Shown: one piece after another, positions 11,675 to 29,732 of the stretch | Layout: every line of letters begins with the position of its first letter | Numbering within the stretch: the stretch's first letter is position 1 | From: Pseudomonadota bacterium | Lineage (GTDB): Bacteria; Pseudomonadota; Alphaproteobacteria; CADEGL01 | NCBI GenBank assembly: GCA_027619995.1 | Contig: JAQCGR010000005.1 | Span: 1 to 35,135, forward strand | Length of the DNA: 35,135 bases | Reading direction: 5' to 3' | Program-made: the position numbers and the translations under genes | Notes under the pieces: model-generated | Told to the model about the DNA's origin: nothing | Databases searched by the model: none | What the model saw: only the letters and a program-made list of their open reading frames with translations

Positions 11675-11699
11675 TCCGGGATTTGAGCCGGGATTTGAG
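11664..11699 (+). repeat. Three tandem copies of a 12-bp unit across a stop codon
   Basis: Three near-identical units CCGGGATTTGA(T/G) occupy 11664-11675, 11676-11687 and 11688-11699; only the last base of the first unit differs. The first unit contains the final codons and TGA stop of the upstream SDR, so the repeat looks like local slippage that extended the gap before the next SDR. Confidence 0.9.
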
Positions 11700-11711
11700 A
11701 GGGAGAAGAAC

Positions 11712-12458
11712 GTGGCGGGTTTGGAGGGAAAGACCGCGCTGGTCACCGGCGCAGGCCGGGGGCTAGGGCGGCAGCACGCATTGACCCTGGCCGAACGGGG
11801 TGCCGCGGTGATCGTCCACGACATCGCGGAGGTCGGGGCCGAGGAAACGGCAGGGATGGTCCGCAAGGCGGGCGGCGAGGCGCGGGTCGCGGTCTGCGAT
11901 ATCACCGATGTGGCGGCGATCAAGGAGGCATTCGGCGCGCTCGGGACCGTCGATATCGTGGTGAACAATGCCGGCACCCATGAAGCACGCCTGATCGAGG
12001 CGATATCCGCCGCCGAGTTCAAGCATATGATGGACGTGCATGTGAAAGGCGCCTTCTTCACCGTCCAGACCCTGCTGCCGGCCATGAAGGAACGGCGCGG
12101 CGGCAAGATCATCAACACCGCTTCGGCCTGGGGCCAATGCGGCTGGCACACGGACAGCCATTATTGCGGCGCGAAGGCCGCGATTCTCGGCCTGACCAAG
12201 GCCTGGGCCAAGGAATTCGCGCCCTGGGGCATCCGCGTGAATGCCGTGTCCCCCGGCGTGGTGATGACGGAGATGACGCGCCTGAACCGGACCGACGAGG
12301 AAATCCGCGATCTGGCGGAAAAGCATATTCCGGTCGGGCGGTTGGGCCTGCCGGAGGATATCTCCTACGCGGTCGCCTATCTCGCCTCCGCCGAGGCCGA
12401 TTTCATCACCGGCCAGGTGCTGCCGGTCAACGGCGGCGAGTTCATCGTCGGCATCTGA
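11712..12458 (+). CDS. Short-chain dehydrogenase/reductase (second of three in tandem)
   Basis: A 248-residue classical SDR. Motifs: TGAGRGLG (residues 12-19), VHDI acidic end of beta-2 (NAD preference), NNAG (85-88), Ser138 in TASAWG, and Tyr151/Lys155 in YCGAK. It resembles its neighbours on both sides, sharing an LTKAWAKEFAPW segment with the first and an LTKAWAKE-APW segment with the third, so the three likely arose by tandem duplication. The start is GTG with GAGGGAGAAG upstream. Function beyond an NAD(P)-linked alcohol/ketone oxidoreductase is not known. Confidence 0.9.
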   Translation: MAGLEGKTALVTGAGRGLGRQHALTLAERGAAVIVHDIAEVGAEETAGMVRKAGGEARVAVCDITDVAAIKEAFGALGTVDIVVNNAGTHEARLIEAISAAEFKHMMDVHVKGAFFTVQTLLPAMKERRGGKIINTASAWGQCGWHTDSHYCGAKAAILGLTKAWAKEFAPWGIRVNAVSPGVVMTEMTRLNRTDEEIRDLAEKHIPVGRLGLPEDISYAVAYLASAEADFITGQVLPVNGGEFIVGI

Positions 12459-12459
12459 T

Positions 12460-13218
12460 ATGGCAGGCCTCGATGGCCGCGTCGTCCTGGTCACCGGCGC
12501 GGGGGCTGGGATGGGGCGGTCCCATGCCCAAATCCTGGCGGCGCGGGGCGCCGATATCGTCGTCCAGGATATCGGCGAGCCATCCGCCCGGGAAACGGCC
12601 GAAATGGTCCTTTCGGCCGGGCGGCGCGCCCATGTCGCGGTCTGCGACGTGTCCGACGGCGAGGCGCTGACGGCTGCAATCGAAGAGGCCGTTGTCGCCC
12701 TGGGGCCGATCGACGTGCTGGTGAACAATGCGGGCATCCATGCCCTCACCCCCTTCGATGAGATCGAGGAGGCGGAGTTCGACCGTATCTTCGCGGTCAA
12801 TGTCGCGGGCAGTTTCAACGCGGCGAAGGCGGTCCTGCCCGGCATGAAGGCGCGGTGCCGGGGCGCCATCGTGAATGTCGCCTCGACCTCCGGCCAGATC
12901 GGCACCCCGAACGACACCCATTATTGCGCGTCGAAAGGGGCGATCCTCGGTCTGACCAAGGCCTGGGCCAAGGAGCTGGCCCCTTGGTCGATCCGCGTGA
13001 ACGCCGTCTCGCCCGGCCCGATCGCCACGGAAATGACGGTGCGCAACCGGGGCTGGGAAGGCATCCGCGAGCGCGCGGAGAAGGAGATTCCCCTGCGCCG
13101 CTACGGCATGCCCGAGGATGTCTCCCATGCCGTCGCCTTTTTGGCGGGCGATGGTGCGAGCTTCGTCACCGGACAGGTGATCACGCTCGCCGGCGGCCTT
13201 GCCATCGTAGGAATCTGA
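12460..13218 (+). CDS. Short-chain dehydrogenase/reductase (third of three in tandem)
   Basis: A 252-residue classical SDR. Motifs: TGAGAGMG (residues 12-19), VQDI after beta-2, NNAG (89-92), Ser near 142 in VASTSG, and Tyr155/Lys159 in YCASK. The ATG follows the previous stop by one base, so translation is probably coupled to the second SDR. It ends in LAIVGI, as the second ends in FIVGI and the first in ATITGI. It faces the convergent oxidoreductase gene at 13253 across 34 bases, in which I see no strong terminator. Confidence 0.9.
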   Translation: MAGLDGRVVLVTGAGAGMGRSHAQILAARGADIVVQDIGEPSARETAEMVLSAGRRAHVAVCDVSDGEALTAAIEEAVVALGPIDVLVNNAGIHALTPFDEIEEAEFDRIFAVNVAGSFNAAKAVLPGMKARCRGAIVNVASTSGQIGTPNDTHYCASKGAILGLTKAWAKELAPWSIRVNAVSPGPIATEMTVRNRGWEGIRERAEKEIPLRRYGMPEDVSHAVAFLAGDGASFVTGQVITLAGGLAIVGI

Positions 13219-13252
13219 AGCGGTCCGTGTCGGACAAGCCGCCGGCCCAGCC

Positions 13253-14521
13253 TTAGAAGCGGTCGATCCGGAAGGGGTGCAGGTCGAGGGCCGGATTCCG
13301 CCCGGCGATCAGATCGGAGACGGCGCGCCCCGTCACGGCGCCGGAGGCCAGGCCGATATGGCTGTGGCCGAAGGCGTAATAGACATTGCGCCGATGCGGC
13401 GAGGGGCCGATCACCGGCATCGAATCGGGCAGCAGGGGCCGGTCGCCCGCCCATTGACTGTAGCCCTCGGTGTTGAGGCCCGGGAAGATGCGCTTGGCGT
13501 TTTCTACGATGGCCCGCGCGCGGCGCCAGTTGGGCGGCGAATCCAATCCCGCGAATTCGCTCGTCCCGCCCAGGCGCAATCCCATGACCATGGGGGTGAT
13601 GGCATGCTTGCCCACGGTGTCCATCATGATATGGCGCACCTCGACCCCAGGATTGGGCAGGCCGACATGGTAGCCGCGCTGGCTTTCCTGGGGCGCGGGC
13701 GAACCCAGCATCTTCGACAGGCGATGCGACCAGGCCCCGGCGGCAACGACGAAATCGTCGGCGGCGATCGTGCCCGATTCCGTGCGCAGGGCGGTGACCT
13801 TGCCATCCGCCGAGTCGAAGCCGGTGACGGCGGCGCGGCGGATCTCGCCGCCCTGGGCGGCGAAATGGCGGGCCAGCCCGTCGACGATCAGGAAGGGGTC
13901 GCCGACATGGCGCCAGACCTCTTCATAGACCGCGAAATTGTAGGCAGGGCCGATATCCGGCTCCATGCGCAGCAGGGCTTCCCGGTCGATGGTTTCGTAG
14001 GGAATGCCGCGATCCTTGCGCAGCTTCCATTGCAGGGCATCGCCCTCGAAGGCGGCGCGGTCGGTATAGAGGTGGATGACACCGGTATGGTGGACCAGAT
14101 TGTCCAGCCCGGCGGCCGAGAAGAGGGGGCGCCAGACCTCGTAGCTGGGCGAGAGCAGCGCGTTCATGGCATCGGTGATGCGCTCGACCTCCTCCATCCG
14201 CCCGGCGCGGGCGAAGCGCAGCAGCCAGGGGGCGAGGCGCGGCAGATGGCTCCATTTCAGTGCCAGGGGCCCGTTCGGGTCGAACAGCCAGCCCGGCACC
14301 TTGCGCAGCACGCCGGGACTCGACAGTGGCGGGATCGAGGTGACGCCGAGCCCGCCCGAATTGCCCCAGGAACAGCCCATGCCGGGGGCCTGCCAGTCGA
14401 CCACGGTCACGCGGTGGCCGTCTTCCTGGAGGCAACAGGCCGTTGCCATACCGATCACACCGGCGCCGACAATGGCGATATGCCGGGAGTCGCCCCGGCC
14501 GGACTCGGCTTGTGTCGTCAT
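13253..14521 (-). CDS. DadA-family FAD-dependent dehydrogenase, possible D-hydroxyproline dehydrogenase (paralogue 1)
   Basis: A 422-residue flavoprotein. The FAD motif is IAIVGAGVIGMATACCLQ (GAGVIG at residues 19-24) followed by TVVD. Then come CSWGNSGGL, the DadA-type PGWLFDPNGPLALKW block, the HYLPRLAPW-like LPRLAPWLLRF segment, and C-terminal QWAGDRPLLPDSMPVIGPSP and FGHSHIGLASGAVTG. This organisation matches D-amino acid dehydrogenases, including the D-hydroxyproline dehydrogenases of hydroxyproline operons. It is downstream of a closely similar paralogue on the same strand (39-base gap), so the two are probably co-transcribed. Membrane quinone or another carrier is the usual electron acceptor in the family. 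Substrate inferred from the nearby epimerase gene. Confidence 0.85.
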   Translation of the reverse strand: MTTQAESGRGDSRHIAIVGAGVIGMATACCLQEDGHRVTVVDWQAPGMGCSWGNSGGLGVTSIPPLSSPGVLRKVPGWLFDPNGPLALKWSHLPRLAPWLLRFARAGRMEEVERITDAMNALLSPSYEVWRPLFSAAGLDNLVHHTGVIHLYTDRAAFEGDALQWKLRKDRGIPYETIDREALLRMEPDIGPAYNFAVYEEVWRHVGDPFLIVDGLARHFAAQGGEIRRAAVTGFDSADGKVTALRTESGTIAADDFVVAAGAWSHRLSKMLGSPAPQESQRGYHVGLPNPGVEVRHIMMDTVGKHAITPMVMGLRLGGTSEFAGLDSPPNWRRARAIVENAKRIFPGLNTEGYSQWAGDRPLLPDSMPVIGPSPHRRNVYYAFGHSHIGLASGAVTGRAVSDLIAGRNPALDLHPFRIDRF

Positions 14522-14560
14522 CGTGAAATGGCCCTGAACTGCCCGGAAACGCGGGATTGT

Positions 14561-15823
14561 CTAGAAGCGGGACACCCGGTAGGGCGCGAGGTCGACCGAG
14601 GGCGGCCGCCCGTCGACGATCTCGGTCACCAGCCTGCCGGTGATTGCCCCCAGGGTCAGGCCGTAGAAGGCGTGTCCGAAGGCGAAAACGACATTTCTGT
14701 GCCGGGGTGAACGGTCGATCACCGGCAGCGAATCGGGAATGATCGGGCGGTCGCCAGCCCATTCGGTATAGCCCTCGGTGCTGATGCCGGGGAAGACGCT
14801 CTTGGCGACCTCGGTCAGCTTGCGCGCCCGGCCCCAGTTCGGCTCCGAATTGAGGCCCGCGAACTCGGCCGTGCCGGCGAAGCGCAACCCCATCCGCATG
14901 GGGGTGATGGCGCAGCTGAACTCGGGCGGGAAGACCATGTTGCGGGGCATCTTGCCCGGCTCGGGCAGGACGATGTGATAGCCGCGGCAGGATTCCAGCG
15001 GAATCTTGCTGCCCAGGCACGCGGCCAGCTTCTGGGACCACGCGCCGGCGCAGATGACCAGATTCTCGACCTTATGCACGCCTTTGTTGGTGCGCAGGGC
15101 ATGCACGCCGTTGGGGCCGGTTTCGATATCGGCCACCAGTTCGCGCAGCAGGGTGCCACCGCGGCGGGGGAAATGCTCGGCCAGGCCGACGACCACCGCA
15201 TGAGGGTCCACCGCGCGCTGCCAATCGGGCTCGAACATGCCGCAGGTATAATCCGGGTTCAGGGTCGGCTCGACCTGGCGCAACTCGTCGCGGTTCAGAC
15301 GCTGCACATTGAGCCCGTGCTGGCGCGACATGCGCCACATGGCGGCGTCGGCTTCCAGGGCCGCCTCGTTGCGATAGGGGATGACGCCGCCGACCGGCTG
15401 CACGAGATCGGCGATTCCGGCGGCATCGAGCAGGGGCTGCCAGTCGGTCTTGCTGCTGCGCATCAGGGCTAGGATGCCCTCGAAGGATTTCCCGGCATTC
15501 TCCGTCCCGCTGGCGCGCATGAAACGGACGAGCCAGGGCGCCAGGCGCGGCAGATAGGGCCAGCGCAGGGCCAGAGGGCCGAGCGGGTCGGTCAGCCAGC
15601 CGGGAAGCTTGGCCGCCATGCCGGGCATGCCCAGCGGGAAGGCATGAGAGGTCGGCATGCCGCCGGCATTGCCGAAGGATGCCGCTTCGCCGGGCGGCAG
15701 GCGGTCGATCACGGTGACGGCATAGCCGGCGTCCTGAAGCTGGACCGCCGTGGCCATGCCGACGACGCCGGCGCCGATGATGGTGACCTGACCGCCCTGG
15801 GCGGCCTTCGATGTCTGGTTCAT
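14561..15823 (-). CDS. DadA-family FAD-dependent dehydrogenase, possible D-hydroxyproline dehydrogenase (paralogue 2)
   Basis: A 420-residue flavoprotein from the ATG at 15823; the frame is open further upstream but without family-like residues. FAD motif VTIIGAGVVGMATAVQLQ (GAGVVG at residues 17-22). It shares with its neighbour the blocks PGWLTDPLGPLALRW, LPRLAPWLVRF, EWAGDRPIIPDSLPVI and FGHAFYGLTLGAITG, so the pair are tandem paralogues. It is transcribed away from the proline-racemase-family gene at 15958. That divergent arrangement of epimerase and FAD dehydrogenase fits a hydroxyproline pathway: epimerase makes the D-isomer and the dehydrogenase oxidises it to 1-pyrroline-4-hydroxy-2-carboxylate. 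Confidence 0.85.
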   Translation of the reverse strand: MNQTSKAAQGGQVTIIGAGVVGMATAVQLQDAGYAVTVIDRLPPGEAASFGNAGGMPTSHAFPLGMPGMAAKLPGWLTDPLGPLALRWPYLPRLAPWLVRFMRASGTENAGKSFEGILALMRSSKTDWQPLLDAAGIADLVQPVGGVIPYRNEAALEADAAMWRMSRQHGLNVQRLNRDELRQVEPTLNPDYTCGMFEPDWQRAVDPHAVVVGLAEHFPRRGGTLLRELVADIETGPNGVHALRTNKGVHKVENLVICAGAWSQKLAACLGSKIPLESCRGYHIVLPEPGKMPRNMVFPPEFSCAITPMRMGLRFAGTAEFAGLNSEPNWGRARKLTEVAKSVFPGISTEGYTEWAGDRPIIPDSLPVIDRSPRHRNVVFAFGHAFYGLTLGAITGRLVTEIVDGRPPSVDLAPYRVSRF

Positions 15824-15957
15824 GGCTCGTGCGGGAAAAGTGAATGGATATGGCGCGCAGCCTACGCCTTGCGGGGGCGCCGGCCAAGCGTCGCGCCGCT
15901 TGCGGGAGGCTCCGCCCTGTGGCACCTAGACTCGATGCCCGGAGCGAGGATGAACCG

Positions 15958-16959
15958 ATGCCCAAAGGTACTTTCTTCTGCGTCGATTCCCACACCTGCG
16001 GTTGCGCGGTGCGGGTCGTGGTCGGGGGCGCGCCGCTGCCCAGGGGAGCGACGGCAAGCGCCCGCCGGGTCGATTTCATCGAACGCCTCGACTGGATCCG
16101 CACCAGCCTGATGTACGAGCCGCGCGGCCACGACATGATGTCGGGCAGCGTGATCTATCCCCCGACCCGCGAGGATTGCGACCTGGGCGTGGTCTTCATC
16201 GAGGTCAGCGGCTGCCTGCCGATGTGCGGCCATGGCACCATGGGCACGGTCACCGTGGCGATCGAGCGCAACCTGGTCGAGCCGAAGGAGCCCGGCGTCC
16301 TGCGCCTCGACACACCGGCCGGCGTGGTGACGGCGCATTACGAGATGAAGGGCGAGCATGTGGAGAGCGTCCGTCTCTCCAACGTCGCCTCCTATGTCCA
16401 TGCCACGGGGATCGAGGTCGATTGCCCGGAACTCGGGCCGCTCTCCGTGGATATCGCCTATGGCGGGAACTTCTACGCCATCGTCGAGCCGCAGAAGACC
16501 TACGACGACCTGAGTCAGTTTGGCTCGCTCGACATCGTGCGGATCAGTCCCCGGCTGCGGACTCTCCTCAACGAGGCAATCGATTGCGTCCATCCGGACG
16601 ATCCCTCGATTCGGGGCATCGAACACATCATGTGGACGGGCCGGCCGACCGTGCCCGGCGCCCATGGCCGGAATGCCGTTTTCCTGGGCGAGCGCGGCAT
16701 CGACCGTTCGCCCTGCGGCACGGGCACCAGCGCGCGCATGGCCCTGCTCCATGCCCGGGGCGATCTGGCCGAGGGCGAGGATTTCATCCACGAAAGCATC
16801 ATCGGCAGCACGTTCACGGGGCGGGTCGAGGGGCTGGCCAAGGTCGGCAATCATCCGGCGATCCGGCCCAGCGTGGCCGGCTGGTCGCGCATCACGGGTA
16901 TCAACACCATATTCGTCGACGACCGCGATCCTTACGCCGCCGGTTTCCAGCTCGCCTAG
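15958..16959 (+). CDS. Proline racemase family enzyme, probable 4-hydroxyproline 2-epimerase
   Basis: A 333-residue protein of the proline racemase superfamily. Both catalytic cysteines are present: Cys90 in MCGHGTMG and Cys253 in SPCGTGTSA. This pair identifies racemases/epimerases and argues against trans-3-hydroxyproline dehydratase, which has Thr or Ser in place of one cysteine. The family blocks EPRGHDMMSGSVIYPP (residues 54-69) and YGGNFYAIV (168-176) are also present. The ATG at 15958 has GAGCGAGGA upstream; the frame opens earlier at 15844, but that stretch is unlike the family. It would convert trans-4-hydroxy-L-proline to cis-4-hydroxy-D-proline, the substrate of the divergent DadA-like genes. 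Proline racemase remains possible. Confidence 0.88.
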   Translation: MPKGTFFCVDSHTCGCAVRVVVGGAPLPRGATASARRVDFIERLDWIRTSLMYEPRGHDMMSGSVIYPPTREDCDLGVVFIEVSGCLPMCGHGTMGTVTVAIERNLVEPKEPGVLRLDTPAGVVTAHYEMKGEHVESVRLSNVASYVHATGIEVDCPELGPLSVDIAYGGNFYAIVEPQKTYDDLSQFGSLDIVRISPRLRTLLNEAIDCVHPDDPSIRGIEHIMWTGRPTVPGAHGRNAVFLGERGIDRSPCGTGTSARMALLHARGDLAEGEDFIHESIIGSTFTGRVEGLAKVGNHPAIRPSVAGWSRITGINTIFVDDRDPYAAGFQLA

Positions 16960-17014: not shown

Positions 17015-17731
17015 ATGGCAGGACCGCTCGACGGACGCCTCGCCCTGGTCACGGGCGCGACCCGGGGCCTTGGCCGGGCGATGGCGGCGCGCCTGCGCGA
17101 CGACGGTGCCCAAGTGATCGGCACGGGCACGCGCTCGGACGGTCAGGTGCCCGAGGGATGCGAGTTCATGTCCGTCGATCTGGCGGATCGGGATGCGACC
17201 ACGGCCTTCGCCGAAACGATCCGTGCCCGCGCGCCCGCGATCCTGATCAACAATGCCGGTATCGGCTTGGAACGCGGAATCGAGGATCTCGAGACCGAGG
17301 ATTTCCTGAAGGTTCAGGAGGTCAATCTGCTCGCCCCGGTCATCCTATGCCGCGCGGTGGTGCCAGGCATGCGCGAGGCCGGCTGGGGCCGGATTCTCAA
17401 TGTCGGCTCGATCTACGGCACGATCAGCCGGGAAAAGCGGGTCGCCTATTCGGCCAGCAAGTTCGGCATCGACGGCGTCACGGCGGCCCTGGCGCCGGAG
17501 GTCGCGAAGGACGGCATCCTGGTGAACACCCTGGCGCCGGGCTTCGTCCGCACCGAGGCGCTCGACGCCATCGAGGATCTCGACATTCCCGCGCTCGAAG
17601 CCCGCATTCCGATCGGGCGCATGGGACGACCGGAGGAAATCGCGGCCTTCGCCGCCTGGTTGGTCGGCCCGGAGAACACCTATATCAGCGGCGCGAACCT
17701 GATCATCGACGGCGGTCTGGTCCGCGTCTGA
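17015..17731 (+). CDS. Short-chain dehydrogenase/reductase (paralogue pair, copy A)
   Basis: A 238-residue classical SDR. Motifs: TGATRGLG (residues 13-20), NNAG (79-82), Ser132 in VGSIYG, and Tyr145/Lys149 in YSASK. After beta-2 the sequence reads IGTGTR without an acidic residue and with an Arg, which often goes with NADP(H). By eye it is about 80% identical, without gaps, to the SDR at 19788-20504, and is unlike the three tandem SDRs upstream. The ATG at 17015 follows GGGGGAGG; an earlier TTG at 17000 overlaps that site and is rejected. It begins the co-directional block that continues to 23407. Confidence 0.9.
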   Translation: MAGPLDGRLALVTGATRGLGRAMAARLRDDGAQVIGTGTRSDGQVPEGCEFMSVDLADRDATTAFAETIRARAPAILINNAGIGLERGIEDLETEDFLKVQEVNLLAPVILCRAVVPGMREAGWGRILNVGSIYGTISREKRVAYSASKFGIDGVTAALAPEVAKDGILVNTLAPGFVRTEALDAIEDLDIPALEARIPIGRMGRPEEIAAFAAWLVGPENTYISGANLIIDGGLVRV

Positions 17732-17814
17732 TTGCGGCGGTCCAGGCTTTCAGGCGTCTGGCGGGGATTTCCTGCCCGTGCTTCAATAACCGGGTGCATC
17801 GGCAGGGGAGGGCC

Positions 17815-18948
17815 ATGCGAAACGGTCCGGAGCCGGCAGCCTGGGTCGAGATCGACCTCGACGCCTTGGGTCAGAACTACCGCGAGGCGGCGCGCCGCGC
17901 CGGCCCTGAAAAGCTGCTTATCGCCTCGATCAAAGCCAATGCCTATGGCCATAGCGCGGTGGCCTGCGCCGTGAGGCTGGCGGCGGAAGGGGCTGCGATG
18001 CTGGCCACCGGCGATATTGCCGAGGCCACCGCGATCCGCGAGGCGGGCGTCGATACGCGGATTCTGATGTTCGGTGGTTTTGCCCCGGATTCCGTGGATT
18101 CGATTCTCGCCCATGATCTGGAGCCGACGGTCTGCAACGACGAGACGGTCGCCGCCGTGGCGCGGGCGTCACGCGGCTCGGCGCCGGTTCACGTCAAGGT
18201 CGATTGCGGGCTGGGCCGGCTCGGCGTGGCTCTGGACGAGGCGGAATCCTTCATTCTGCGCGTAGCGGGGACTCCGGGAGTCGAGGTCGCGGGGGTCTAT
18301 ACCCATGTGCCCTTCTTCGACGATGACGGCCGGGCCTGGGCGATGGCGCGGGTCGCTTCTTTCGAAGCCATGCTGGATCGCCTTTCGGCCGCCGGGCTGG
18401 CAGTGCCGATGACTCAGGCCCTGGCCAGTTCCGCCCTGCTGTGCGGCGACAACGACCGGACCAGTGCGGTCTGCGTCGGCCATATCCTCTATGGCCTGTC
18501 GTCCATGGCGCCGGGACTGGCGGATATGAGCGGCTTCCGTCCGGTGCTGCGCGCGGTGCGCGCCCGGCTGATCCATGTCGCGCAGCACGCCGCCGGGCGC
18601 GACGTCATGATCGGCGGCCATTACGGTCTGGCCAATGCCATGACCACCGGGGTCGCGCCGATGGGCATGCAGCAGGGCAATCGCGGGGCCGCGCCCGGCC
18701 AGGCCGCCCAGGCCATCGTGGCGGGCCGCCGCGCGCCGGTGATGGGCGTGTCCCTGGAACACGCCACCTTGGACCTGAGCAGGCTCGGGAATGCGGCGCT
18801 GGGCGAGATCGTTACTTTCCTCGGCGCGGCCGGCGATGACATGATTTCGATCGAAGATCTGGCGGCCTGGCAGGGCCGCACGCCGCTCGAGACGGCCATG
18901 ACCTTCTCGGGCCATCTGCCGATCCGCCACGGGTCGGGATCGGCGTAA
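17815..18948 (+). CDS. Alanine-racemase-like PLP enzyme with altered active site
   Basis: A 377-residue fold-type III PLP enzyme. The N-terminal barrel has WVEIDLDALGQNY, the PLP-binding Lys40 in IKANAYGHS, KVDCGLGRLG (residues 128-137) and a conserved YTHVPFFDD region. The C-terminal domain keeps the catalytic Tyr270 in HYGLANA. Where alanine racemases have the Arg that contacts the PLP ring nitrogen (pattern VRxGIxxYG), this protein reads VCVGHILYG, with Cys220 at that place. The usual VGYADG segment is replaced by APMGMQQG, and the usual SMDQ by SLEH. Start ATG has GGGGAGGG upstream. It lies between an SDR and a 2-oxoglutarate dioxygenase in a catabolic-looking block, so a specialised racemase or other PLP chemistry on a non-alanine substrate is likely. 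Cell-wall alanine racemase is less likely. Confidence 0.75.
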   Translation: MRNGPEPAAWVEIDLDALGQNYREAARRAGPEKLLIASIKANAYGHSAVACAVRLAAEGAAMLATGDIAEATAIREAGVDTRILMFGGFAPDSVDSILAHDLEPTVCNDETVAAVARASRGSAPVHVKVDCGLGRLGVALDEAESFILRVAGTPGVEVAGVYTHVPFFDDDGRAWAMARVASFEAMLDRLSAAGLAVPMTQALASSALLCGDNDRTSAVCVGHILYGLSSMAPGLADMSGFRPVLRAVRARLIHVAQHAAGRDVMIGGHYGLANAMTTGVAPMGMQQGNRGAAPGQAAQAIVAGRRAPVMGVSLEHATLDLSRLGNAALGEIVTFLGAAGDDMISIEDLAAWQGRTPLETAMTFSGHLPIRHGSGSA

Positions 18949-18974
18949 ACGAACGGAGCGCAAGGGAGGTCACA

Positions 18975-19763
18975 ATGAAGCTTACCGACGAGCAGATCGC
19001 CCTCTACAACGAGCAAGGCTACCTTTTCGTGCCGGAGGCCATTCCGGCAGCGGAAATAGCGGTCGTCCGCGATCATGTGTCAGATCTGGTCGGCGAGAAG
19101 CGCGACGCGGTGATCGCGGAGGCCGACGGCAAGACCATCCGCTCGGTCCTTAACGGGCATCTCTACGACGACGTGATCGACCGCTTCATCCGCCACGAGG
19201 CCGTCATCGAACCGGCCATGCAGATGGTCGGCACGCCGCTCTACACCTTCCAGTCGATCCTGAACGTCAAGCGGGCCTTCGACGGCGCCCAATGGCAGTG
19301 GCATCAGGATTATCCGACCTACAAGGTCGACGACGGGATGAAGGACACGCGCGCGGTCAATGCGATGATCTTCGTAGACGAGGTGACCGAGTTCAACGGA
19401 CCACTGATGATGGTGCCGGCATCCCACGCCTCGCTCTTGATGCCCGAGATTCCGGAATACGACACCAAGATCACGACCTATCCGCACGGGCGCTATCCCG
19501 ATGTGGAATGGGTCAAGCCGGTGATGCGGAGCAACGGACTGGTGGCGCCGAAGGGCCCGCCCGGCTCGATCATCTTCATGCATCTGCTGACGGTTCACGG
19601 CTCGGGCCCGAACATGTCGCCCTGGCATCGTTCGGTCATGTCCCTCACCCTGAACTCGGTCGAGAACAAGGCCGAGGGCACGGTGCGCGGACCCGCCGTG
19701 TGTCACGATTACACGCCGATCCGGCCGGTTCCGGGCAGTGCGCTGCTCGAACTGGCGGCCTGA
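18975..19763 (+). CDS. PhyH-family Fe(II)/2-oxoglutarate dioxygenase, EctD/proline-hydroxylase-like
   Basis: A 262-residue non-haem iron dioxygenase of the phytanoyl-CoA dioxygenase family. The iron triad is readable: His110 and Asp112 in WHQDYP and distal His208 in TVHGSGPN, with Arg219 (PWHRSVM) as the likely 2-oxoglutarate anchor. The stretch WQWHQDYPTYKVDDGM, followed by NGPLMMVPASH, resembles ectoine hydroxylase and bacterial trans-4-proline hydroxylases of the same family. AGGGAGGT lies close before the ATG. It sits 26 bases after the PLP enzyme and 24 before an SDR. Hydroxylation of a cyclic or N-containing amino acid is a reasonable inference. Hydroxyproline formation cannot be claimed from sequence alone. 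Confidence 0.82.
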   Translation: MKLTDEQIALYNEQGYLFVPEAIPAAEIAVVRDHVSDLVGEKRDAVIAEADGKTIRSVLNGHLYDDVIDRFIRHEAVIEPAMQMVGTPLYTFQSILNVKRAFDGAQWQWHQDYPTYKVDDGMKDTRAVNAMIFVDEVTEFNGPLMMVPASHASLLMPEIPEYDTKITTYPHGRYPDVEWVKPVMRSNGLVAPKGPPGSIIFMHLLTVHGSGPNMSPWHRSVMSLTLNSVENKAEGTVRGPAVCHDYTPIRPVPGSALLELAA

Positions 19764-19787
19764 CCGGAAACGCGGGAGGAGGCGATC

Positions 19788-20504
19788 ATGGTAAAGCCGC
19801 TGGACGGCCGGTTGGCCCTCGTTACCGGCGCCACGCGCGGCCTGGGGCGTGCGATCGCCGAGCGATTGCGGGACGACGGAGCAAAGGTGATCGGCACCGG
19901 CACCCGGCCCGACGGTGAGGTCCCGGACGGCTGCGAATTCATGGCGGTCGATTTCACCGACCGGGCGGCCACCGAGGCTTTCGGCGAGAAAGTTCGCGCC
20001 CTTGAACCGCTGATCCTGGTGAACAATGCCGGCATCGGGATCGAGCGCGGTATCGAGGATCTGAAAACGGAGGAATTTCTCAAGGTCCATGACATCAATC
20101 TGCTGGCCCCGGTCATTCTGTGCCGCGCCGTGGTGCCGGGCATGCGCAAGGCCGGTTGGGGGCGCATTCTCAATGTCGGCTCGATCTACGGCACGATCAG
20201 CCGAGAGCGACGCATCCCCTATTCCTCGACCAAGTTCGCCATCGACGGGGTCACCGCGGCCCTTGCTCCGGAAGTGGCGAAGGACGGCATTCTCGTGAAT
20301 ACCCTGGCGCCCGGCTTCATCTATACCGAGATGATCGATGCGGCGGAGGATATCGACGTGCCCGCCCTGGAGGCGACAATCCCCATCGGCCGCATGGCCC
20401 AGCCGGGAGAAATCGCGGCCTTCGCGTCCTGGCTGGTCGGGCCGGAGAATACCTATATCAGCGGCTCGTCCCTGACCATCGACGGCGGCCTGGTGCGGGT
20501 CTGA
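19788..20504 (+). CDS. Short-chain dehydrogenase/reductase (paralogue pair, copy B)
   Basis: A 238-residue classical SDR, gap-free and about 80% identical by eye to the SDR at 17015-17731 (about 48 differences). Motifs TGATRGLG (residues 13-20), NNAG, VGSIYG serine, and Tyr145/Lys149 in YSSTK are all kept, and so is the IGTGTR segment after beta-2. GGGAGGAGG precedes the ATG. Retention of two intact copies flanking the PLP enzyme and the dioxygenase suggests two related substrates, or two steps acting on stereoisomers. Confidence 0.9.
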   Translation: MVKPLDGRLALVTGATRGLGRAIAERLRDDGAKVIGTGTRPDGEVPDGCEFMAVDFTDRAATEAFGEKVRALEPLILVNNAGIGIERGIEDLKTEEFLKVHDINLLAPVILCRAVVPGMRKAGWGRILNVGSIYGTISRERRIPYSSTKFAIDGVTAALAPEVAKDGILVNTLAPGFIYTEMIDAAEDIDVPALEATIPIGRMAQPGEIAAFASWLVGPENTYISGSSLTIDGGLVRV

Positions 20505-20511
20505 GGCGGAT

Positions 20512-21702
20512 ATGGCTATGACCGCGTTTCCCCGTGCCGCCGAAGTTCAGCCCGATCATGACGGCCGGCGCGCGCCGCCGGTTGCCGAAGGCGAGGTTCC
20601 GGCCGCCCTGCGCACGGTGCCCGGCGCGGAGCGCGACAAGCAACAGGAGCGGTTCTTCGAACTGCATTACCCGGAGCCCAATTTCAAGCTCGGCTGGTCG
20701 GAACAGACCCATAAGCGGCTGGTGAACGAAGGGCCGCCCTGCCATCTGGGGCAAACCTACGAACGCCTGACCGAGAAATACGGCGACCTGATCCCGCGCG
20801 CGAATGCGGCGGCCCTGTCCTTTCACGAACGGCCGGCGGAGGGCGCGGGCGATCCGGAACGTGACCTCTCGGAGGATATCCGCCGGCAGGCCGCGGAAAG
20901 CGGCGTGGATCTGGTCGGCTTTACGAAGTTCGAACGCCGCTACGTCACCGCCGAGGGCAAGGACAGCGCGCTGTTCAAGAACGTGATCGTGCTGTGCCGC
21001 GCCTTCGACTGGGAGGCGACACAGGCCCTGCCCAGCGTGGATTGGGACGTCCATTCCTACGACACCAGCCTGGCCCTGACCCTGGCCGCGCTGGAAGTGG
21101 CCGAATTCATTCGCCGGCAGGGTTTTCCGGTGCAGTTCATCGCCGGCACGGGGATGCCGGGCGAGAAGATGCTGGCCCCCGTCCTGCCCTATGCGGTCGA
21201 GGCGGGGCTCGGGCAGATGGGGGCCAACGGCACGATGCTGACCGCGGAATACGGCAGCCGCATTCGGATTCTGGCGCTTTCGACCGATGCTCCGGTGACC
21301 CACGGAAAGCCCGTCGATCTCGGCATTAACGCGCTGTGCGACGCCTGCCAGATCTGCACCAACCGCTGCCCGGGCCGCGCCCTCTCGCGCAACCGCATCA
21401 CCTGGCGTGGCGTGACCAAATACAAGGTCGTGGCCGAGCGCTGCCTGCCTATGCTCCGTTATGCCGATTGCAACGTCTGCACCAAGGTCTGCCCGGTCCA
21501 GCATCACGGCCTCAAGCCTGTGCTCGAGCATTTCGAGAAGACGGGCGAAGTTCTGGGCAAGGACGACGCGAATTTGCAGAGCTATGATTTCTTCGAGAAG
21601 GGCCGTTTCGGTCCCGGGCAACTGCCGCGCTTCGGCGCGAAGGAAGGCGGCCGGGGCCTCAAGGAGATGGTCCGCGCCTTGGAAGGCGACGAGACAACCT
21701 GA
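20512..21702 (+). CDS. QueG/reductive-dehalogenase-like double [4Fe-4S] protein
   Basis: A 396-residue protein with two ferredoxin-type clusters near the C terminus: Cys276, 279, 282 and 286 in CDACQICTNRCP, and Cys311, 320, 323 and 327 ending in CNVCTKVCPV. The region before them (VIVLCRAFDW, a SYDTSLALTLAALEVAEFI helix, YAVEAGLGQMGANG) matches the corrinoid-binding core shared by epoxyqueuosine reductase and reductive dehalogenases. It lacks an obvious Tat signal, so it should be cytoplasmic. It is longer than typical QueG at the N terminus and sits in a catabolic block, so tRNA modification is unlikely. ATGs at 20512 and 20518 are both possible starts. Reductive dehalogenation or another cobalamin-dependent reduction is an inference. 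Confidence 0.78.
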   Translation: MAMTAFPRAAEVQPDHDGRRAPPVAEGEVPAALRTVPGAERDKQQERFFELHYPEPNFKLGWSEQTHKRLVNEGPPCHLGQTYERLTEKYGDLIPRANAAALSFHERPAEGAGDPERDLSEDIRRQAAESGVDLVGFTKFERRYVTAEGKDSALFKNVIVLCRAFDWEATQALPSVDWDVHSYDTSLALTLAALEVAEFIRRQGFPVQFIAGTGMPGEKMLAPVLPYAVEAGLGQMGANGTMLTAEYGSRIRILALSTDAPVTHGKPVDLGINALCDACQICTNRCPGRALSRNRITWRGVTKYKVVAERCLPMLRYADCNVCTKVCPVQHHGLKPVLEHFEKTGEVLGKDDANLQSYDFFEKGRFGPGQLPRFGAKEGGRGLKEMVRALEGDETT

Positions 21703-21733
21703 ATTTCCAGACCGAACCAGAGGGGAAACAAGC

Positions 21734-23407
21734 ATGGCCGAATCCCGGACCGGAGCCGAATATATTGCCGAGGCCTTCGAAGCCTATGGCGTCACCGATG
21801 TCTTCTTCATGGAGGCGATCGTGCGTCGCAGCCTCCACCAGATGGAGAAGCGCGGCATCCGGCGGATCATGGCCCATACCGAGAAGGCGGCCGCCTATAT
21901 GGCCGATGGCTATGCAAGGGCGACCGGCAAGGTCGGCATCTGCATGGCCCAGGCCGTGGGGGCGGCGAATCTGGCGGCTGGCCTGCAGGATGCCTGGCTC
22001 GCCCGAACGCCGATTGTCGCCCTGACGGGGCATAAGGCGATTCCCAGTCTGCAGCGCAATGCCTATCAGGAAATCGATCATCCGCCGATGTTCAAGCCGG
22101 TCACCCGGTTCTCGGCCAATGTCGAGGATGTCAGCCAGTTGCCTTTCCTGCTGCGCCAGGCCTTCCGCGAGGCGACGGGTCCGACCCCGCGCCCGGCCCA
22201 TCTCGACCTCGCGGGGTTGAGCGGCGAGGTCGTCGATGCCGCCACCGTCACGGGCGTGCTCGAGGTCGACCCGCGCCATGGCCGCGCGCCCGCCTATAGG
22301 GCCGCGCCCGATCCGGCGGATATCGCGGCGGCGGCAAAGCTGATCGACGCGGCGCAACGGCCGGTCGCCTTCCTCGGCGGGGGGGCGGTCCTGGCGGGTG
22401 CGCGGGAGGAGGCGCAGGCCCTCGCCGCGCTGGGCATTCCCATCGCCTATGGGCTCGACGGCAAGGGATTGGTTTCCGACACCGCCGAGACGACCATCGG
22501 CGCGGTCGGCCATTATTCCGCGCCCTATGCCAACAAGGCCGTGCACGAGGCCGATTTGGTGATCTATGTCGGCAGCGACACGAGCGATCAGGCGACCGAA
22601 AGCTGGCGGGTCCCCGCGCCGGGCACACGAATCGTCCAGATCGACGCGGATCATGCGGAACTGGGTCGCAATTATCCCGGTGCGCTGGGCATCCTGGCCG
22701 ATTGCAAGCTGGGCCTGCGCGCCCTGGTCGAAAAGCTACGCCCGCGCGAGAACGGCGCCTGGGTCGCCCGGGTCGCCGGGCTGCGCCGGGAATGGGAAGC
22801 GGAAATCGAGGCGAGCGCGACCTCGGCCGGCAAGCCGACTACGGTGGAGCGGCTATGCCGTGAAGTGACCCAGGCCCTGCCCGAGGATGCGATGCTGGTG
22901 GCCGATACCGGCTTCAGCGGGATCTGGACGGGCACCCAGATTCATCTCAATGGCGGTGGGCAGGGCTATATGCGGGCGGCGGGATCCCTTGGCTGGGGTT
23001 TCCCTGCGGCGATTGGCGCGCAATGCGGTTTGCCAGATCGCCCGGTGGTCTGTTTCTGTGGCGACGGCGCCTTCTACTACCACCTGGCGGAGTTGGAGAC
23101 GGCGCGGCGTTGGAATATTCCGGTGACCGTCGTGGTCAACAACAACTCGGCCTTCGGTCAGGACATCCTCGGCGTCCGGCAGGTCTATGGCCAGGACAAT
23201 GGTCGCTGGGGCGATCTAACCAATTTCGCGCCGACAAATTTCGCCGCCGTGGCCGAATCCTTCGGCTGCAAGGGCGTGCGGATCGAAGATCCCGCCGATC
23301 TGGGCGATGCCCTGCGCGAGGCCATCCGGGCCGAGGAGCCGCGTGTAATCGACGTCGCCACGGATAGCGGAAATCGCGCGCCGGATGCGTGGGTTCCGCC
23401 AGCCTAA
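21734..23407 (+). CDS. Thiamine diphosphate-dependent enzyme of the acetolactate synthase/decarboxylase superfamily
   Basis: A 557-residue ThDP enzyme with the usual three domains. The N-terminal PYR domain has the catalytic Glu50 in AHTEKAAAYMADGYAR. A central domain (about 190-330) holds a GGGAVLAGA loop. The C-terminal PP domain carries the Mg-ThDP motif from GDG (443-445) to NN (469-470). I chose the ATG at 21734 with AGGGGAAA upstream; the frame runs back into the preceding gene. It could be an acyloin synthase, a 2-oxo acid decarboxylase or a sulfo-acid enzyme; the residues seen do not decide. It follows the Fe-S protein by 31 bases, so the two are probably co-expressed. Its stop overlaps the stop of the convergent MATE gene by 4 bases. 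Confidence 0.88.
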   Translation: MAESRTGAEYIAEAFEAYGVTDVFFMEAIVRRSLHQMEKRGIRRIMAHTEKAAAYMADGYARATGKVGICMAQAVGAANLAAGLQDAWLARTPIVALTGHKAIPSLQRNAYQEIDHPPMFKPVTRFSANVEDVSQLPFLLRQAFREATGPTPRPAHLDLAGLSGEVVDAATVTGVLEVDPRHGRAPAYRAAPDPADIAAAAKLIDAAQRPVAFLGGGAVLAGAREEAQALAALGIPIAYGLDGKGLVSDTAETTIGAVGHYSAPYANKAVHEADLVIYVGSDTSDQATESWRVPAPGTRIVQIDADHAELGRNYPGALGILADCKLGLRALVEKLRPRENGAWVARVAGLRREWEAEIEASATSAGKPTTVERLCREVTQALPEDAMLVADTGFSGIWTGTQIHLNGGGQGYMRAAGSLGWGFPAAIGAQCGLPDRPVVCFCGDGAFYYHLAELETARRWNIPVTVVVNNNSAFGQDILGVRQVYGQDNGRWGDLTNFAPTNFAAVAESFGCKGVRIEDPADLGDALREAIRAEEPRVIDVATDSGNRAPDAWVPPA

Positions 23408-24762
23408 GGGATAGGCTCCGTCTGGGCCGGCATCGCGGCGAAACTGCGCGTGATGCGCGGATAGTAGATCATCAGGGTCGCGGCGCGGGCCACAGAGAGG
23501 ATGAGGTAGGATAGCCAAAGCCCGTGATTGCCCCAGAGCGGGACCAGGAGCCATAGAGCGGCCGCGTAGATTGCCGCGGTCAGGATCATGGCGTTGCGCA
23601 TCTCGGCGGAGCGCGTCGCGCCGATGAAGATGCCGTCGAGCAGATAGCTCCAGACGAGGACCAGAGGCGCGGCGACGATCCAGAACAAGTAGTCGCGCGC
23701 GACCGCGCGCACCGATCCGATTTCGGCCAGGGCGTCGATGATCGCGCCGCCGCCCAGGGCGAACAGCGCGGTGAATCCCGCCGCGAAAATCACCGACCAG
23801 ATGGCGCCCACGGCGACGGCGTTGCGATACTGGTCGCGGCTGCGCGCGCCCACGGCCTGGCCGACCAGGGCCTCGGTCGCGAAGGCGAAGCCGTCCAGCG
23901 CCTGGGCGAGGAACTGATTGAACAGGATCAGAATCGCGTTCGCCGCCAGGACGACATCGCCGAACTGCGCGCTCAGCACAGTCAGATAGGCATGGGCCGA
24001 GACGATGAGGAAGGAGCGGATGAAGATATTGCCGTTGACTGCCATCAGGGCCAGTAAGCGGCGCCCGCCGATGGCGGCCCAGGTGACGAGCCCGCCGGGG
24101 ATGTCTTTCAGGCAGCGCAGCACAAGAAAGCCGCCGAGGGCCAGGCCGGCATATTCGGAGATGAGGGTGCCCAAGGCGACACCTTCGACGCCCCAGCCGA
24201 AGCTGAGCACGAAAAGCAGGTCGAGCACGACGTTGAGGGCGTGATAGGCGACCTGCAGCACCAGGGCCGCAACGGTGCGTTGAATGCCGATCAGCCAGCC
24301 GGTCACGGCGAAGATGCCGAGCGCGCCGGGCAGGCCCCAGATGCGGATGTCGTAATAGATGCGCCCGAGTTCGGTGACCTTTTCGCTGGCGCCGATGATG
24401 TCGTAGGCGAGATCGCCCACGGGGTTGCGCAGCAGGATGAAGAAAATGCCCAGGGCGAGGGCGAGCAGAAGGCTGCGAATCACCAACGCGCGCAGCTCGA
24501 TTCCGTCGCGCGCGCCGAAGGCCTGGGCCGTCATGCCGGTGGTGGCCATGCGCAGAAAGCCGAAGACCCAGAGGAAATAGCTCAGGATCACGCTGCCGAC
24601 CGCGACCCCGCCGATAAAGGCCGGATCGGGCAGGCGGCCCATCACCCCGGTATCGACCGCGCCCAGCAGAGAATGGGAGACATTGGACAGCATGATCGGC
24701 CAGGCGAGATGCCACATGCGCCGATGCCAATGGGCGTCCGGGTTGCGAAACCGCCCGATCAT
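23404..24762 (-). CDS. MATE family multidrug/metabolite efflux transporter
   Basis: A 452-residue inner-membrane protein of the multi-antimicrobial extrusion family, DinF-like. Twelve or so hydrophobic segments can be followed. Family blocks include the N-terminal HLAWPIMLSNVSHSLLGAVD segment with VMGRLPD after it, then TGMTAQAFGARD near residue 80 and an ALDGFAFATEALVGQAVGAR block at the start of the second half. The ATG at 24762 is preferred over a GTG at 24786 because the extra residues (MGPARRHS) are not hydrophobic and not conserved. Such proteins export cations, drugs or metabolites in exchange for protons or sodium. Its substrate is unknown; next to a catabolic block it might release a toxic intermediate. 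Confidence 0.9.
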   Translation of the reverse strand: MIGRFRNPDAHWHRRMWHLAWPIMLSNVSHSLLGAVDTGVMGRLPDPAFIGGVAVGSVILSYFLWVFGFLRMATTGMTAQAFGARDGIELRALVIRSLLLALALGIFFILLRNPVGDLAYDIIGASEKVTELGRIYYDIRIWGLPGALGIFAVTGWLIGIQRTVAALVLQVAYHALNVVLDLLFVLSFGWGVEGVALGTLISEYAGLALGGFLVLRCLKDIPGGLVTWAAIGGRRLLALMAVNGNIFIRSFLIVSAHAYLTVLSAQFGDVVLAANAILILFNQFLAQALDGFAFATEALVGQAVGARSRDQYRNAVAVGAIWSVIFAAGFTALFALGGGAIIDALAEIGSVRAVARDYLFWIVAAPLVLVWSYLLDGIFIGATRSAEMRNAMILTAAIYAAALWLLVPLWGNHGLWLSYLILSVARAATLMIYYPRITRSFAAMPAQTEPIP

Positions 24763-24825
24763 GCTGTGCCGTCTCGCCGGCCCCACCGGGGGGCCGTGCG
24801 ACGTGCCGATGCCGTCATCCGATGC

Positions 24826-26604
24826 CTAGCGACCTGCCGCGCAGCCGGATCTGTTGCGCACGCTGGCGCCGGCCCGGATCACCGCGCCGTCCTTGGCGAC
24901 CGCGGAGAGGCGGCCCAGCGTCCACGGCCCGACATCCTCGATCTCGTGGCCGCGCCGCTTCAACTCGTCGATGGTCTTCTTGCCGAAGCGGCTTTCGACC
25001 TGGAGATGGTTCGGCTTGGCGTCGCGCGGATAGAAGGAGCTCGGCGCGTGGTCCGACTGGAAGGCCGGCGCGTCGATCGATTCCTGCAGGTCCATGCCGT
25101 GATGGACATGGCGCAGGAACAGCTGAAGCGCCCATTGATCCTGACTGTCGCCGCCGGGCGAGCCGAAAGCCATATAGGGCTTGCCGTCGCGCAGGCAGAG
25201 GCCGGGGGTCAGGGTCGTGCGCGGCCGCGCGCCGGGGGCCAGGCTGGCCGGAAGGCCCTCCTCCAGCCAGAACATCTGGGCGCGCGTGCCCAGGCAGAAG
25301 CCGAGTTCGGGAATGACCGGCGAGGATTGCAGCCAGCCGCCGCTCGGCATGGCCGACACCATGTTGCCTTCCCGGTCGACGGTGTTGACGTTCGCCGTGT
25401 CGCCGGCCATTTCGCGGGCCAGAGCGGCGTTCGGTTCGCCCCCTCCTGGCGCGATGGGCGCCGTGACGCGCGAGCCTTCGAGCACGATCCGCGGCAAGCG
25501 GGGCGGCGTGGCGCCGATCTGCCCCGGACGCAGCTCGATCATGGCCGCGGCCCCGATCTCGGCGCGCCGGGCGGCGGCATAGCCGGGGTCCAGCAGCGCG
25601 GCCAGGGGCACATCGAAGAAATCCGGATCGCCGTAATAGGCCTCGCGATCGGCCATGGTCAGTTTCATGGCTTCGGTCAGGACATGGACGAAATCGGGTC
25701 CGTTCGGGTCCATCGACGCCAAATCGATGCCTTCGAGAATCGCCAGGGTTTGCAGGGCTACCGGGCCTTGGCCCCAGGGGCCGGTCTTGATGACGGTATA
25801 GCCGTGATAGTCAATCGTCGCAGGGGCCTCCACCAGGGCTCGCCAGCGGGCCATGTCATCGGCGGTCAGGAAGGCGCGGTCGGATCGCCCGGCGCCGTCC
25901 GGCGCCGGCTTCTCAGCAAAGCGGCCAATCGCTTCGGCGATGAAGCCCCGATAGTAGACGTCCCGGGCGGCTTCGATCTGGGCCTCTCGATCGCCGCCGG
26001 CCGCCTCGGCCTCGTCGATCAGGCGGGCATAGGTCGCGGCGAGACCTTCGTTGCGCATCAAGGTGCCGGGCGCTGGCGCCTTGCCGTCGCGCAGATAGAC
26101 CTTGCCCGATTCCGGCCAGGTCTCGGCCAGCAGGTCGCGCACCGTGTCGATATAGCGGCTGAGGGTGAAGGACACGGGAAAGCCGTCGCGGGCATAGGCC
26201 ACGGCCGGTTCGAGCACTTCGCGCAGCGACATGCGGCCATGATCGCGCAGCAGGATCATCCAGGCGTCGAAAGCGCCTGGCACGACGGCGGGGAGCAGGC
26301 CGGTGCCGGGAATCAGCTCGATGCCGAGCGCGCGATAGGCTGCGATCGTCGCGCCTTGCGGCGCGGGGCCCTGGCCGCAGATTACGCGGGCGTCCCCTCC
26401 CGCATCCTGGACGATGATCGGCACGTCGCCGCCCGCGCCGTTCTGATGGGGTTCGACCACTTGGAGGGTAAAGCCTGCCGCGACAGCGGCATCGGCAGCG
26501 TTGCCGCCACGTTCCATCATCGCCATGCCGACATGGCTGGCGATCCAATGGGTCGAGCCGACGGCTCCGAAGGTTCCGCGAATTTCCGGTCGAACGGCGT
26601 CCAT
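24826..26604 (-). CDS. Gamma-glutamyltranspeptidase family hydrolase
   Basis: A 592-residue Ntn-hydrolase precursor. The start region AVGSTHWIASHVGMAMMERGGNAADAAVAA is a family hallmark, followed by EPHQNGAGGD. The self-cleavage site and nucleophile is Thr403 in GDTANVNTVDREGN; the downstream GSPGGDSQ (about residues 500-507) forms the oxyanion/product-binding segment. The second residue after the nucleophile is Ala-Asn rather than the usual Thr-His, so it is a divergent member. There is no signal peptide, unlike the periplasmic enzyme of Escherichia coli, so a cytoplasmic role is likely. The ATG at 26604 has GGAGAAG upstream; the frame is open further, without family-like sequence. Substrate may be a gamma-glutamyl amide or a cephalosporin-acylase-type amide. 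Confidence 0.88.
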   Translation of the reverse strand: MDAVRPEIRGTFGAVGSTHWIASHVGMAMMERGGNAADAAVAAGFTLQVVEPHQNGAGGDVPIIVQDAGGDARVICGQGPAPQGATIAAYRALGIELIPGTGLLPAVVPGAFDAWMILLRDHGRMSLREVLEPAVAYARDGFPVSFTLSRYIDTVRDLLAETWPESGKVYLRDGKAPAPGTLMRNEGLAATYARLIDEAEAAGGDREAQIEAARDVYYRGFIAEAIGRFAEKPAPDGAGRSDRAFLTADDMARWRALVEAPATIDYHGYTVIKTGPWGQGPVALQTLAILEGIDLASMDPNGPDFVHVLTEAMKLTMADREAYYGDPDFFDVPLAALLDPGYAAARRAEIGAAAMIELRPGQIGATPPRLPRIVLEGSRVTAPIAPGGGEPNAALAREMAGDTANVNTVDREGNMVSAMPSGGWLQSSPVIPELGFCLGTRAQMFWLEEGLPASLAPGARPRTTLTPGLCLRDGKPYMAFGSPGGDSQDQWALQLFLRHVHHGMDLQESIDAPAFQSDHAPSSFYPRDAKPNHLQVESRFGKKTIDELKRRGHEIEDVGPWTLGRLSAVAKDGAVIRAGASVRNRSGCAAGR

Positions 26605-26660
26605 GGGTTTTTCTTCTCCGTCGGTTGGGCCTAGGACACGAATTCGCAAATCATGACAGC

Positions 26661-26675
26661 GCCCGCCTGGCGGGC
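26661..26675. promoter_or_regulatory. Perfect 15-base palindrome between divergent genes
   Basis: GCCCGCC at 26661-26667 and GGCGGGC at 26669-26675 are exact inverted copies around one base. The site lies midway between the gamma-glutamyltranspeptidase-like gene and the divergent sensor kinase gene. It may be an operator or simply a hairpin. Confidence 0.3.
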
Positions 26676-26698
26676 CAACCACAAGCCTCGCGATCGGC

Positions 26699-26714
26699 TG
26701 GCACGAAAAACGCA
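26699..26714 (+). promoter_or_regulatory. Possible sigma-54 promoter for the sensor kinase gene
   Basis: TGGCACG at 26699-26705 is a perfect -24 box, and GCA at 26712-26714 has the right spacing for the -12 element (consensus TTGCA; here ACGCA). Transcription would start near 26726, about 80 bases before the kinase ATG. Two mismatches in the -12 box keep confidence low. Confidence 0.35.
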
Positions 26715-26805
26715 TAATTTCGGGAAATTGCCTTTAGGATGGCCCGTTCATGCGAATTTGCTACCTCGATACCCTGTTTCCATGCAGTTTTGACAAGGGT
26801 CGATC

Positions 26806-28866: not shown

Positions 28867-28888
28867 GCCGGGTCGAGATCAGCCCGGC
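28867..28888. terminator. Weak hairpin between convergent sensor kinase and lipoprotein genes
   Basis: GCCGGG (28867-28872) pairs with CCCGGC (28883-28888) over a 10-base loop. It overlaps the last codons of the minus-strand lipoprotein gene and lacks a T tract, so terminator activity is uncertain. Confidence 0.25.
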
Positions 28889-29505: not shown

Positions 29506-29732
29506 CTGAGGTCCACTCCCTGGCCGAGATCGTCGCCGAAGAAGAAGCGCGCCGGATCGTTTTCGACCTTGTCGGTCAGGCGGGTCAGGCTGCCGGTCAG
29601 GGTGCGCAATTCGTTGACCAGAAGCGATAGTTCGTAGAGCCCGACCGAGGTGAAGTCGCGCACCGGCGCGCGGTTTTCTGCCGCCATCGCCGTCAATTCG
29701 TTGGACAGGGCGGTCAGGGAGTCGGCCGTGCC
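29502..29732 (-). pseudogene. Out-of-frame C-terminal tail of the MCE-domain gene
   Basis: The frame that ends at 29502 reads GTADSLTALSNELTAMAAEN and then continues through a LVNELRTLTGSLTRLTDKVE segment to NDPARFFFGD. Those are the usual last blocks of Mla-type MCE proteins, in which ENDPARFLFG near the C terminus is common. It is in a different frame from the MCE gene at 29714-30451, so the tail appears cut off by an indel of one base (or 1 mod 3). Confidence 0.75.

Follow-up and report, generated by a model that had tools for sequence, protein, structure and literature searches.

A conserved gene triad of a racemase-like protein, a dioxygenase and a dehydrogenase suggests an undescribed hydroxylate-then-cleave amino-acid pathway in Alphaproteobacteria

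Alanine racemase (Alr, TIGR00492, EC 5.1.1.1), an enzyme dependent on pyridoxal 5'-phosphate (PLP), employs Lys39 and Tyr265 as its two bases and places Arg219 at the PLP nitrogen, where it disfavours the quinonoid (PMC3485190). Exchange of the tyrosine alone turns the Geobacillus enzyme (Y265A, a retro-aldolase credited to Seebeck and Hilvert 2003) into an aldolase restricted to D-amino acids, with racemase activity reduced 4x10^5-fold (PMC3962088); the conversion of Alr to an aldolase is also supported by PMC4401734 and PMC6411801. The base acting on the hydroxyl group is proposed to be His166, and D-threonine aldolase and D-serine dehydratase, for which similar mechanisms have been put forward, are close relatives (PMC4401734). 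Here we describe a gene run at positions 17015-23407 of a 35,135-nucleotide contig (JAQCGR010000005.1, referred to below as the window) from the fragmented genome of a marine alphaproteobacterium (3.48 Mb over 418 contigs). Its core consists of Alr2, a PLP enzyme of the alanine-racemase fold, a PhyH/EctD-like Fe(II)/2-oxoglutarate dioxygenase (hereafter PhyH) and a short-chain dehydrogenase/reductase, SDR2. This triad suggests an undescribed pathway in which an amino acid is hydroxylated and then cleaved.

The original prediction for this DNA had read the run as six genes of a single undescribed catabolic pathway. The six same-strand open reading frames are indeed present, all at the positions given and all of the families named there, and the short spacing that it described, with 83 bases before the PLP gene, agrees with the measured gaps of 83, 26, 24, 7 and 31 bases from the first SDR gene (SDR1) to the gene of the thiamine diphosphate (ThDP) enzyme. 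All six are intact, with ratios of nonsynonymous to synonymous substitution rates of 0.05-0.19 against the same-genus relative (Rhodospirillaceae metagenome-assembled genome SI072_bin169), indicating purifying selection. The complete gene order, however, recurs only within the genus (L010; most genes 84-96% identical), which rules out the six-gene pathway as the conserved unit. We sampled five genomes of the family: G000, G383, G114, G217 and G307. Alr2, PhyH and the SDR are all present in four of them, while the fifth, G307, is without all three though it is congeneric with G114. The three genes are adjacent in G000, G383 and G114, the last of which carries a clean Alr2-PhyH-SDR operon, and G217 has two linked pairs, PhyH-SDR and Alr2-PhyH'. 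Since the triad travels together and the other genes scatter, we take the triad as the unit and the rest as local context. The predicted undescribed system thus survives as a conserved grouping, with three genes in place of six, and this grouping very probably represents a real functional module.

The SDR that belongs to this module is the second of the two in the run. Its orthologues in G114 and G217 are 81-83% identical to SDR2, adjoin PhyH in both genomes, and match SDR2 more closely than SDR1. Judged by these identities, SDR1 is probably a genus-level duplicate of SDR2; at 80% identity between the two copies, the earlier description of them as near-identical was an overstatement. No close SDR matches were found on plasmids, and neither Alr nor SDR2 was found beside PhyH relatives outside the family. 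More distant SDRs, 41-58% identical to SDR2, are located close to a conserved gene encoding about 690 amino acids in three family genomes (L105, L106 and L107), and G307 has three SDRs of this kind close together. Behind the Alr2-PhyH' pair of G217 come a GTP-cyclohydrolase-II-like gene and a DUF1688 gene (L022:9948-12621), which are presumably members of a uracil breakdown (URC) pathway.

The link between PhyH and Alr2 is also seen outside this family. In G194, a genome of another alphaproteobacterial family, the two are fused in one reading frame without internal stops on a 51-kb contig, and the product holds complete PhyH, Ala_racemase_N and Ala_racemase_C domains (Table 1). The order of the fusion, PhyH and then Alr2, is the reverse of the operon order, which argues that the association is not merely one inherited neighbourhood and that it arose or was kept for function. 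A literature search, with most subscription journals outside its scope, returned nothing relevant on a PhyH-Alr pair or fusion.

The PhyH sequences point in the same direction. The motif HQDYPxY at the metal site is common to the Alr2-linked PhyHs, to the G194 fusion and to the best outside match, from G067, a genome that carries Alr2 on another contig; all other PhyHs that were read have HQDY(G/A)xW or other forms. Among the 57 genomes whose PhyH sequence was read, the HQDYPxY type occurs in six, all of them with Alr2, which is itself found in 11 of the 57. The corresponding probability of 1.3e-5 assumes independence of genomes, which does not hold, and it overstates the association because a single family accounts for four of the six genomes and it was the fusion that brought G194 to notice. 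The window protein has the metal ligands HxD...H and the 2-oxoglutarate arginine (His110, Asp112, His208 and Arg219 in PhyH numbering), and these are intact in all compared PhyHs. Its nearest solved relatives, at 111-158 bits, are 7dzz, 7e01 and 7dt0, the leucine hydroxylase 5nch and ectoine hydroxylase; the first three are deposited as phytanoyl-CoA dioxygenase, and we take them to be L-proline trans-hydroxylase. With hydroxylases of proline, leucine and ectoine as the nearest structures, free amino acids are the likely substrate class. PhyH shares the fold and the metal-binding residues with EctD, L-proline trans-hydroxylase and the leucine hydroxylase GriE; unlike them it bears the HQDYPxY motif and is linked to Alr2, and it scores below the ectoine hydroxylase cut-off (TIGR02408, 150.1 bits against 336.5).

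Alr2 exceeds the curated cut-off for alanine racemase (TIGR00492, 195.3 bits against 168), PF01168 and PF00842 are the only domains reported in it, and its predicted model (confidence, pLDDT, of 86.2) matches solved Alrs with TM-scores of about 0.75-0.85. In Geobacillus numbering it retains Lys39, Tyr43, Lys129, Arg136, His166 and Ser204, so that the fold, both domains, the PLP lysine, Arg136 and His166 are all shared with Alr, whereas six positions are changed: Arg219Cys, Tyr265Ile, Tyr284Met, Met312Leu, Asp313Glu and Tyr354Leu. The Geobacillus row of the alignment was transcribed from a printed Protein Data Bank alignment, with approximate ends, and eight motifs served to check its numbering; the PLP lysine is Lys in every row. 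In the tree Alr2 falls within a supported alphaproteobacterial clade of 14 members (support 100/99). Arg219 is lost in all 14 (Cys in 11, Ala in two, Ser in one) and Tyr265 in 13, with Tyr present in the rhizobial plasmid protein of L137. The clade keeps Lys39, Arg136 and His166, and an invariant Glu315, often with His next to it, stands in place of the Met312-Asp313 region; the ordinary Alrs examined retain both Arg219 and Tyr265. A Pfam search found a separate normal Alr in all five family genomes, ruling out that Alr2 is the sole Alr of its genome, as a protein-similarity search had indicated. This makes a cell-wall role unnecessary for Alr2, which is thus unlikely to be the housekeeping supplier of D-alanine. 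On its residues Alr2 is quite probably not an ordinary racemase.

Several further Alr-like proteins were seen alongside this clade. The wider-phylum matches L140-L142, retrieved with the clade profile, are ordinary Alrs with all residues present. A sister group (L119, L121, L122, L125 and L126) carries Asp or Asn in place of Arg219 and forms a second divergent set. The clade also takes in rhizobial plasmid 'alanine racemases' (L137:7944-9107 and L138:7944-9116), whose genes have a different context, adjoining phosphoesterase and sugar-type ABC transporter genes.

Table 1. Genes of the same-strand run in the window and the PhyH-Alr2 fusion of G194
Feature	Position	Strand	Evidence
4-hydroxyproline epimerase	15958..16959	+	NCBIfam NF010578, 541.9 bits (cut-off 376); opens the same-strand run
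SDR1	17015..17731	+	SDR family match
Alr2, PLP enzyme of alanine-racemase fold (core)	17815..18948	+	Ala_racemase_N and Ala_racemase_C
PhyH/EctD-like Fe(II)/2-oxoglutarate dioxygenase, HQDYPTY motif (core)	18975..19763	+	PhyH family match
SDR2, conserved PhyH partner (core)	19788..20504	+	SDR family match
QueG/RdhA-like 4Fe-4S protein (run member, non-core)	20512..21702	+	Below RDH and QueG cut-offs
ThDP enzyme, acetolactate-synthase superfamily (non-core)	21734..23407	+	TPP enzyme N/M/C
PhyH-alanine-racemase-type fusion	L133:8958-10886	-	642 amino acids; near hydantoinase A/B genes and a branched-chain-type transporter

What could be the chemistry of a racemase fold that has lost these residues? 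Without Arg219, the clade has lost the residue to which disfavouring of the quinonoid is ascribed (PMC3485190). The clade keeps the lysine and the histidine used by the Y265A chemistry and has a hydroxylase adjoining or fused, which makes an aldolase the simplest reading; by this analogy, aldolase chemistry in Alr2 is plausible. We propose that PhyH, with 2-oxoglutarate, Fe(II) and O2, would introduce a hydroxyl group into a free alpha-amino acid, probably at C-beta. The hydroxylated product, probably of the D-configuration, would be bound by Alr2 as a PLP aldimine on Lys40, and the conserved His164 of Alr2 (the equivalent of Geobacillus His166) would act as the base on the beta-hydroxyl. The bond between C-alpha and C-beta would then be cut to give glycine and an aldehyde, which the SDR may oxidise or reduce. 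In this genus the module is situated beside a catabolic island for D-amino acids and 4-hydroxyproline, with its SDR probably duplicated and with the QueG/RdhA-like and ThDP genes as non-core members of the run. Building on the observed gene content, conservation, co-occurrence, single fusion, residue losses and retained fold, we put forward the full series of hydroxylation, retro-aldol cleavage and SDR action on the aldehyde as a tentative proposal, with somewhat less than an even chance of being right in all its steps. The generalization that the clade of former racemases without Tyr265 and Arg219 comprises natural D-beta-hydroxy-amino-acid aldolases, paired with and once fused to a dedicated hydroxylase, is more speculative still.

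The described systems resemble this proposal to different degrees. Like Alr2, the Y265A variant has no Tyr265 and keeps Lys39 and His166; Alr2 differs from it in belonging to a natural clade, in also being without Arg219 and the Tyr354 gate, and in that its aldolase activity is only predicted. D-threonine aldolase and D-serine dehydratase have the same fold-III barrel, while their D-specific chemistry on beta-hydroxy amino acids is only proposed for Alr2, which unlike them possesses an Ala_racemase_C domain and has no reported match to their family. Their active-site metal is bound by His and Asp; the Alr2 clade has Glu315, often followed by His, in the Met312-Asp313 region. A parallel for the order of events is found in carnitine biosynthesis, whose first three steps are carried out by a dioxygenase, a PLP aldolase and a dehydrogenase in succession (PMC11016064). 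The comparison of these steps (TMLD, HTMLA and TMABA dehydrogenase) with the triad concerns the logic of the pathway, as a likeness of working only. The three carnitine enzymes belong to families other than those of the triad proteins.

A number of observations weigh against the aldolase proposal. Presumed proline hydroxylases are among the nearest solved relatives of PhyH, and proline, as a secondary amine, could not form the aldimine required by Alr2; for PhyH and Alr2 to act one after the other, a substrate with a primary amine is needed, and we have therefore rejected proline as a substrate shared by both. In six further genomes from the family of G194 the fusion is absent, so that it rests on one assembly. 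Alr2 adjoins PhyH in only five of 12 sampled Alr2-bearing genomes; elsewhere its neighbours are hydantoinase A/B, M20 peptidase, amidase or ABC transporter genes, so that more than one function may be represented in the clade. In G217 the module is divided and two PhyHs of the HQDYPxY type are present. Inside the Alr2 model, confidence is lowest in the loop found in place of Tyr265. No single residue settles the reaction: loss of Arg219 and Tyr265 would also fit decarboxylation or one-base racemization, and the residues fit beta-elimination or another lyase reaction nearly as well as aldol cleavage.

Two alternatives retain the module and assign other chemistry to Alr2. In the first, Alr2 would act as a PLP lyase in the manner of fold-III D-serine dehydratase, eliminating water or ammonia from the hydroxylated amino acid or decarboxylating it, and the SDR would reduce the resulting keto acid or amine. 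The joint loss of Arg219 and Tyr265 and the similar mechanisms proposed for the closely related D-threonine aldolase and D-serine dehydratase (PMC4401734) are in keeping with this, and a keto acid product would go well with the neighbouring ThDP enzyme. Among experiments, the best precedent for the loss of Tyr265 in this fold is nevertheless aldolase activity, Alr2 is without a match to the D-serine dehydratase family, and the ThDP gene lies outside the conserved core; we consider a lyase unlikely.

The second alternative draws in part on the surroundings of the run. Upstream, at 1164-16959 of the window, lie a branched-chain-type ABC transporter, three genes of the FAD-dependent amino-acid dehydrogenase type, a DapA-like lyase, an aldehyde dehydrogenase, three SDRs and the 4-hydroxyproline epimerase. 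Genes of this kind are the usual equipment for 4-hydroxyproline breakdown, so that the block occupies the margin of a catabolic island for D-amino acids. The gene run itself begins before 17015, since the epimerase ends 55 bases upstream of SDR1 on the same strand, and no terminator-like site was found in this gap (the promoter and terminator scans were otherwise uninformative). In such a setting Alr2 might still be a racemase or epimerase, with a site remodelled for a hydroxylated or bulky amino acid and another second base, such as the invariant Tyr270 or Glu315; PhyH would hydroxylate the amino acid and the neighbouring D-amino-acid dehydrogenases would oxidise it. The score of Alr2 above the alr cut-off agrees with this, as do the D-amino-acid dehydrogenase-type genes and the epimerase that adjoin in this genus, and Tyr354 is replaced in lysine and broad-spectrum racemases too (PMC3485190). 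Those racemases, however, retain both catalytic residues (PMC3485190), whereas the Alr2 clade has lost Arg219 in all 14 members and Tyr265 in 13, and no D-amino-acid dehydrogenases adjoin the module in G114 or G217. Continued racemase activity strikes us as rather unlikely.

Retention of the whole run as a six- or seven-gene pathway, in which one small nitrogen compound is degraded and the QueG-like and ThDP enzymes perform the last steps, would account for the tight spacing and for the full synteny in two species. The search for co-occurrence of the six families argues otherwise. The QueG/RdhA-like gene is present in all five family genomes at about 65% identity, with other neighbours in three: it stands apart from the module in G114 and G217 and occurs without any module in G307. 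In G114 the ThDP gene lies on a different contig, and at the strict cut-off applied to this search (E 1e-140) it has no match in G217 or G307. We regard the longer pathway as improbable. Nor do the two proteins support the halogenated or sulfonated substrate that had been suggested for the pathway, as opposed to an amino acid, which is still the probable substrate. The QueG/RdhA-like protein has two 4Fe-4S cysteine sets, invariant in the alignment, and falls far below the cut-offs for reductive dehalogenase (TIGR02486, 81.4 bits against 160.35) and QueG (TIGR00276, 29.4 against 200); its structure model is too poor to use (mean pLDDT 59.9). The ThDP protein, in which the catalytic Glu and GDG...N motifs are present, is likewise below the cut-off of every curated ThDP family shown, including sulfoacetaldehyde acetyltransferase (Xsc, TIGR03457, 230.6 bits against 676.4) and acetolactate synthase (TIGR00118, 307.1 against 538.35). 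That the genes are chance neighbours, catabolic functions collected in one island with no common pathway, is very improbable: the fragmented state of the assembly, the abundance of SDR and PhyH genes and the varied neighbours of Alr2 elsewhere speak for it, but the triad is present and absent jointly within the family and PhyH and Alr2 occur as a fusion.

If the aldolase proposal is correct, a whole clade annotated as 'alanine racemase', some of it on RefSeq plasmids and above the curated cut-off, performs different chemistry, and the well-known laboratory conversion of a racemase to an aldolase has a natural counterpart, partnered by the hydroxylase that supplies its substrate. For the production of beta-hydroxy amino acids, D-selective aldolases together with hydroxylases matched to them would be useful. 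Even with the aldolase step wrong, the residue pattern makes the name 'alanine racemase' unsafe for this clade.

Beyond the run, the window contains a MATE family efflux transporter and a gamma-glutamyltransferase (23404-26715, minus strand), which are convergent with the block and retained in the same-genus genome. They are followed by a putative MCE/Mla-type lipid transport set on the same strand (28879-31993), recognized by eye from the translations only, and by a tRNA-Val (gac) at 34519-34593, close to the end of the window.

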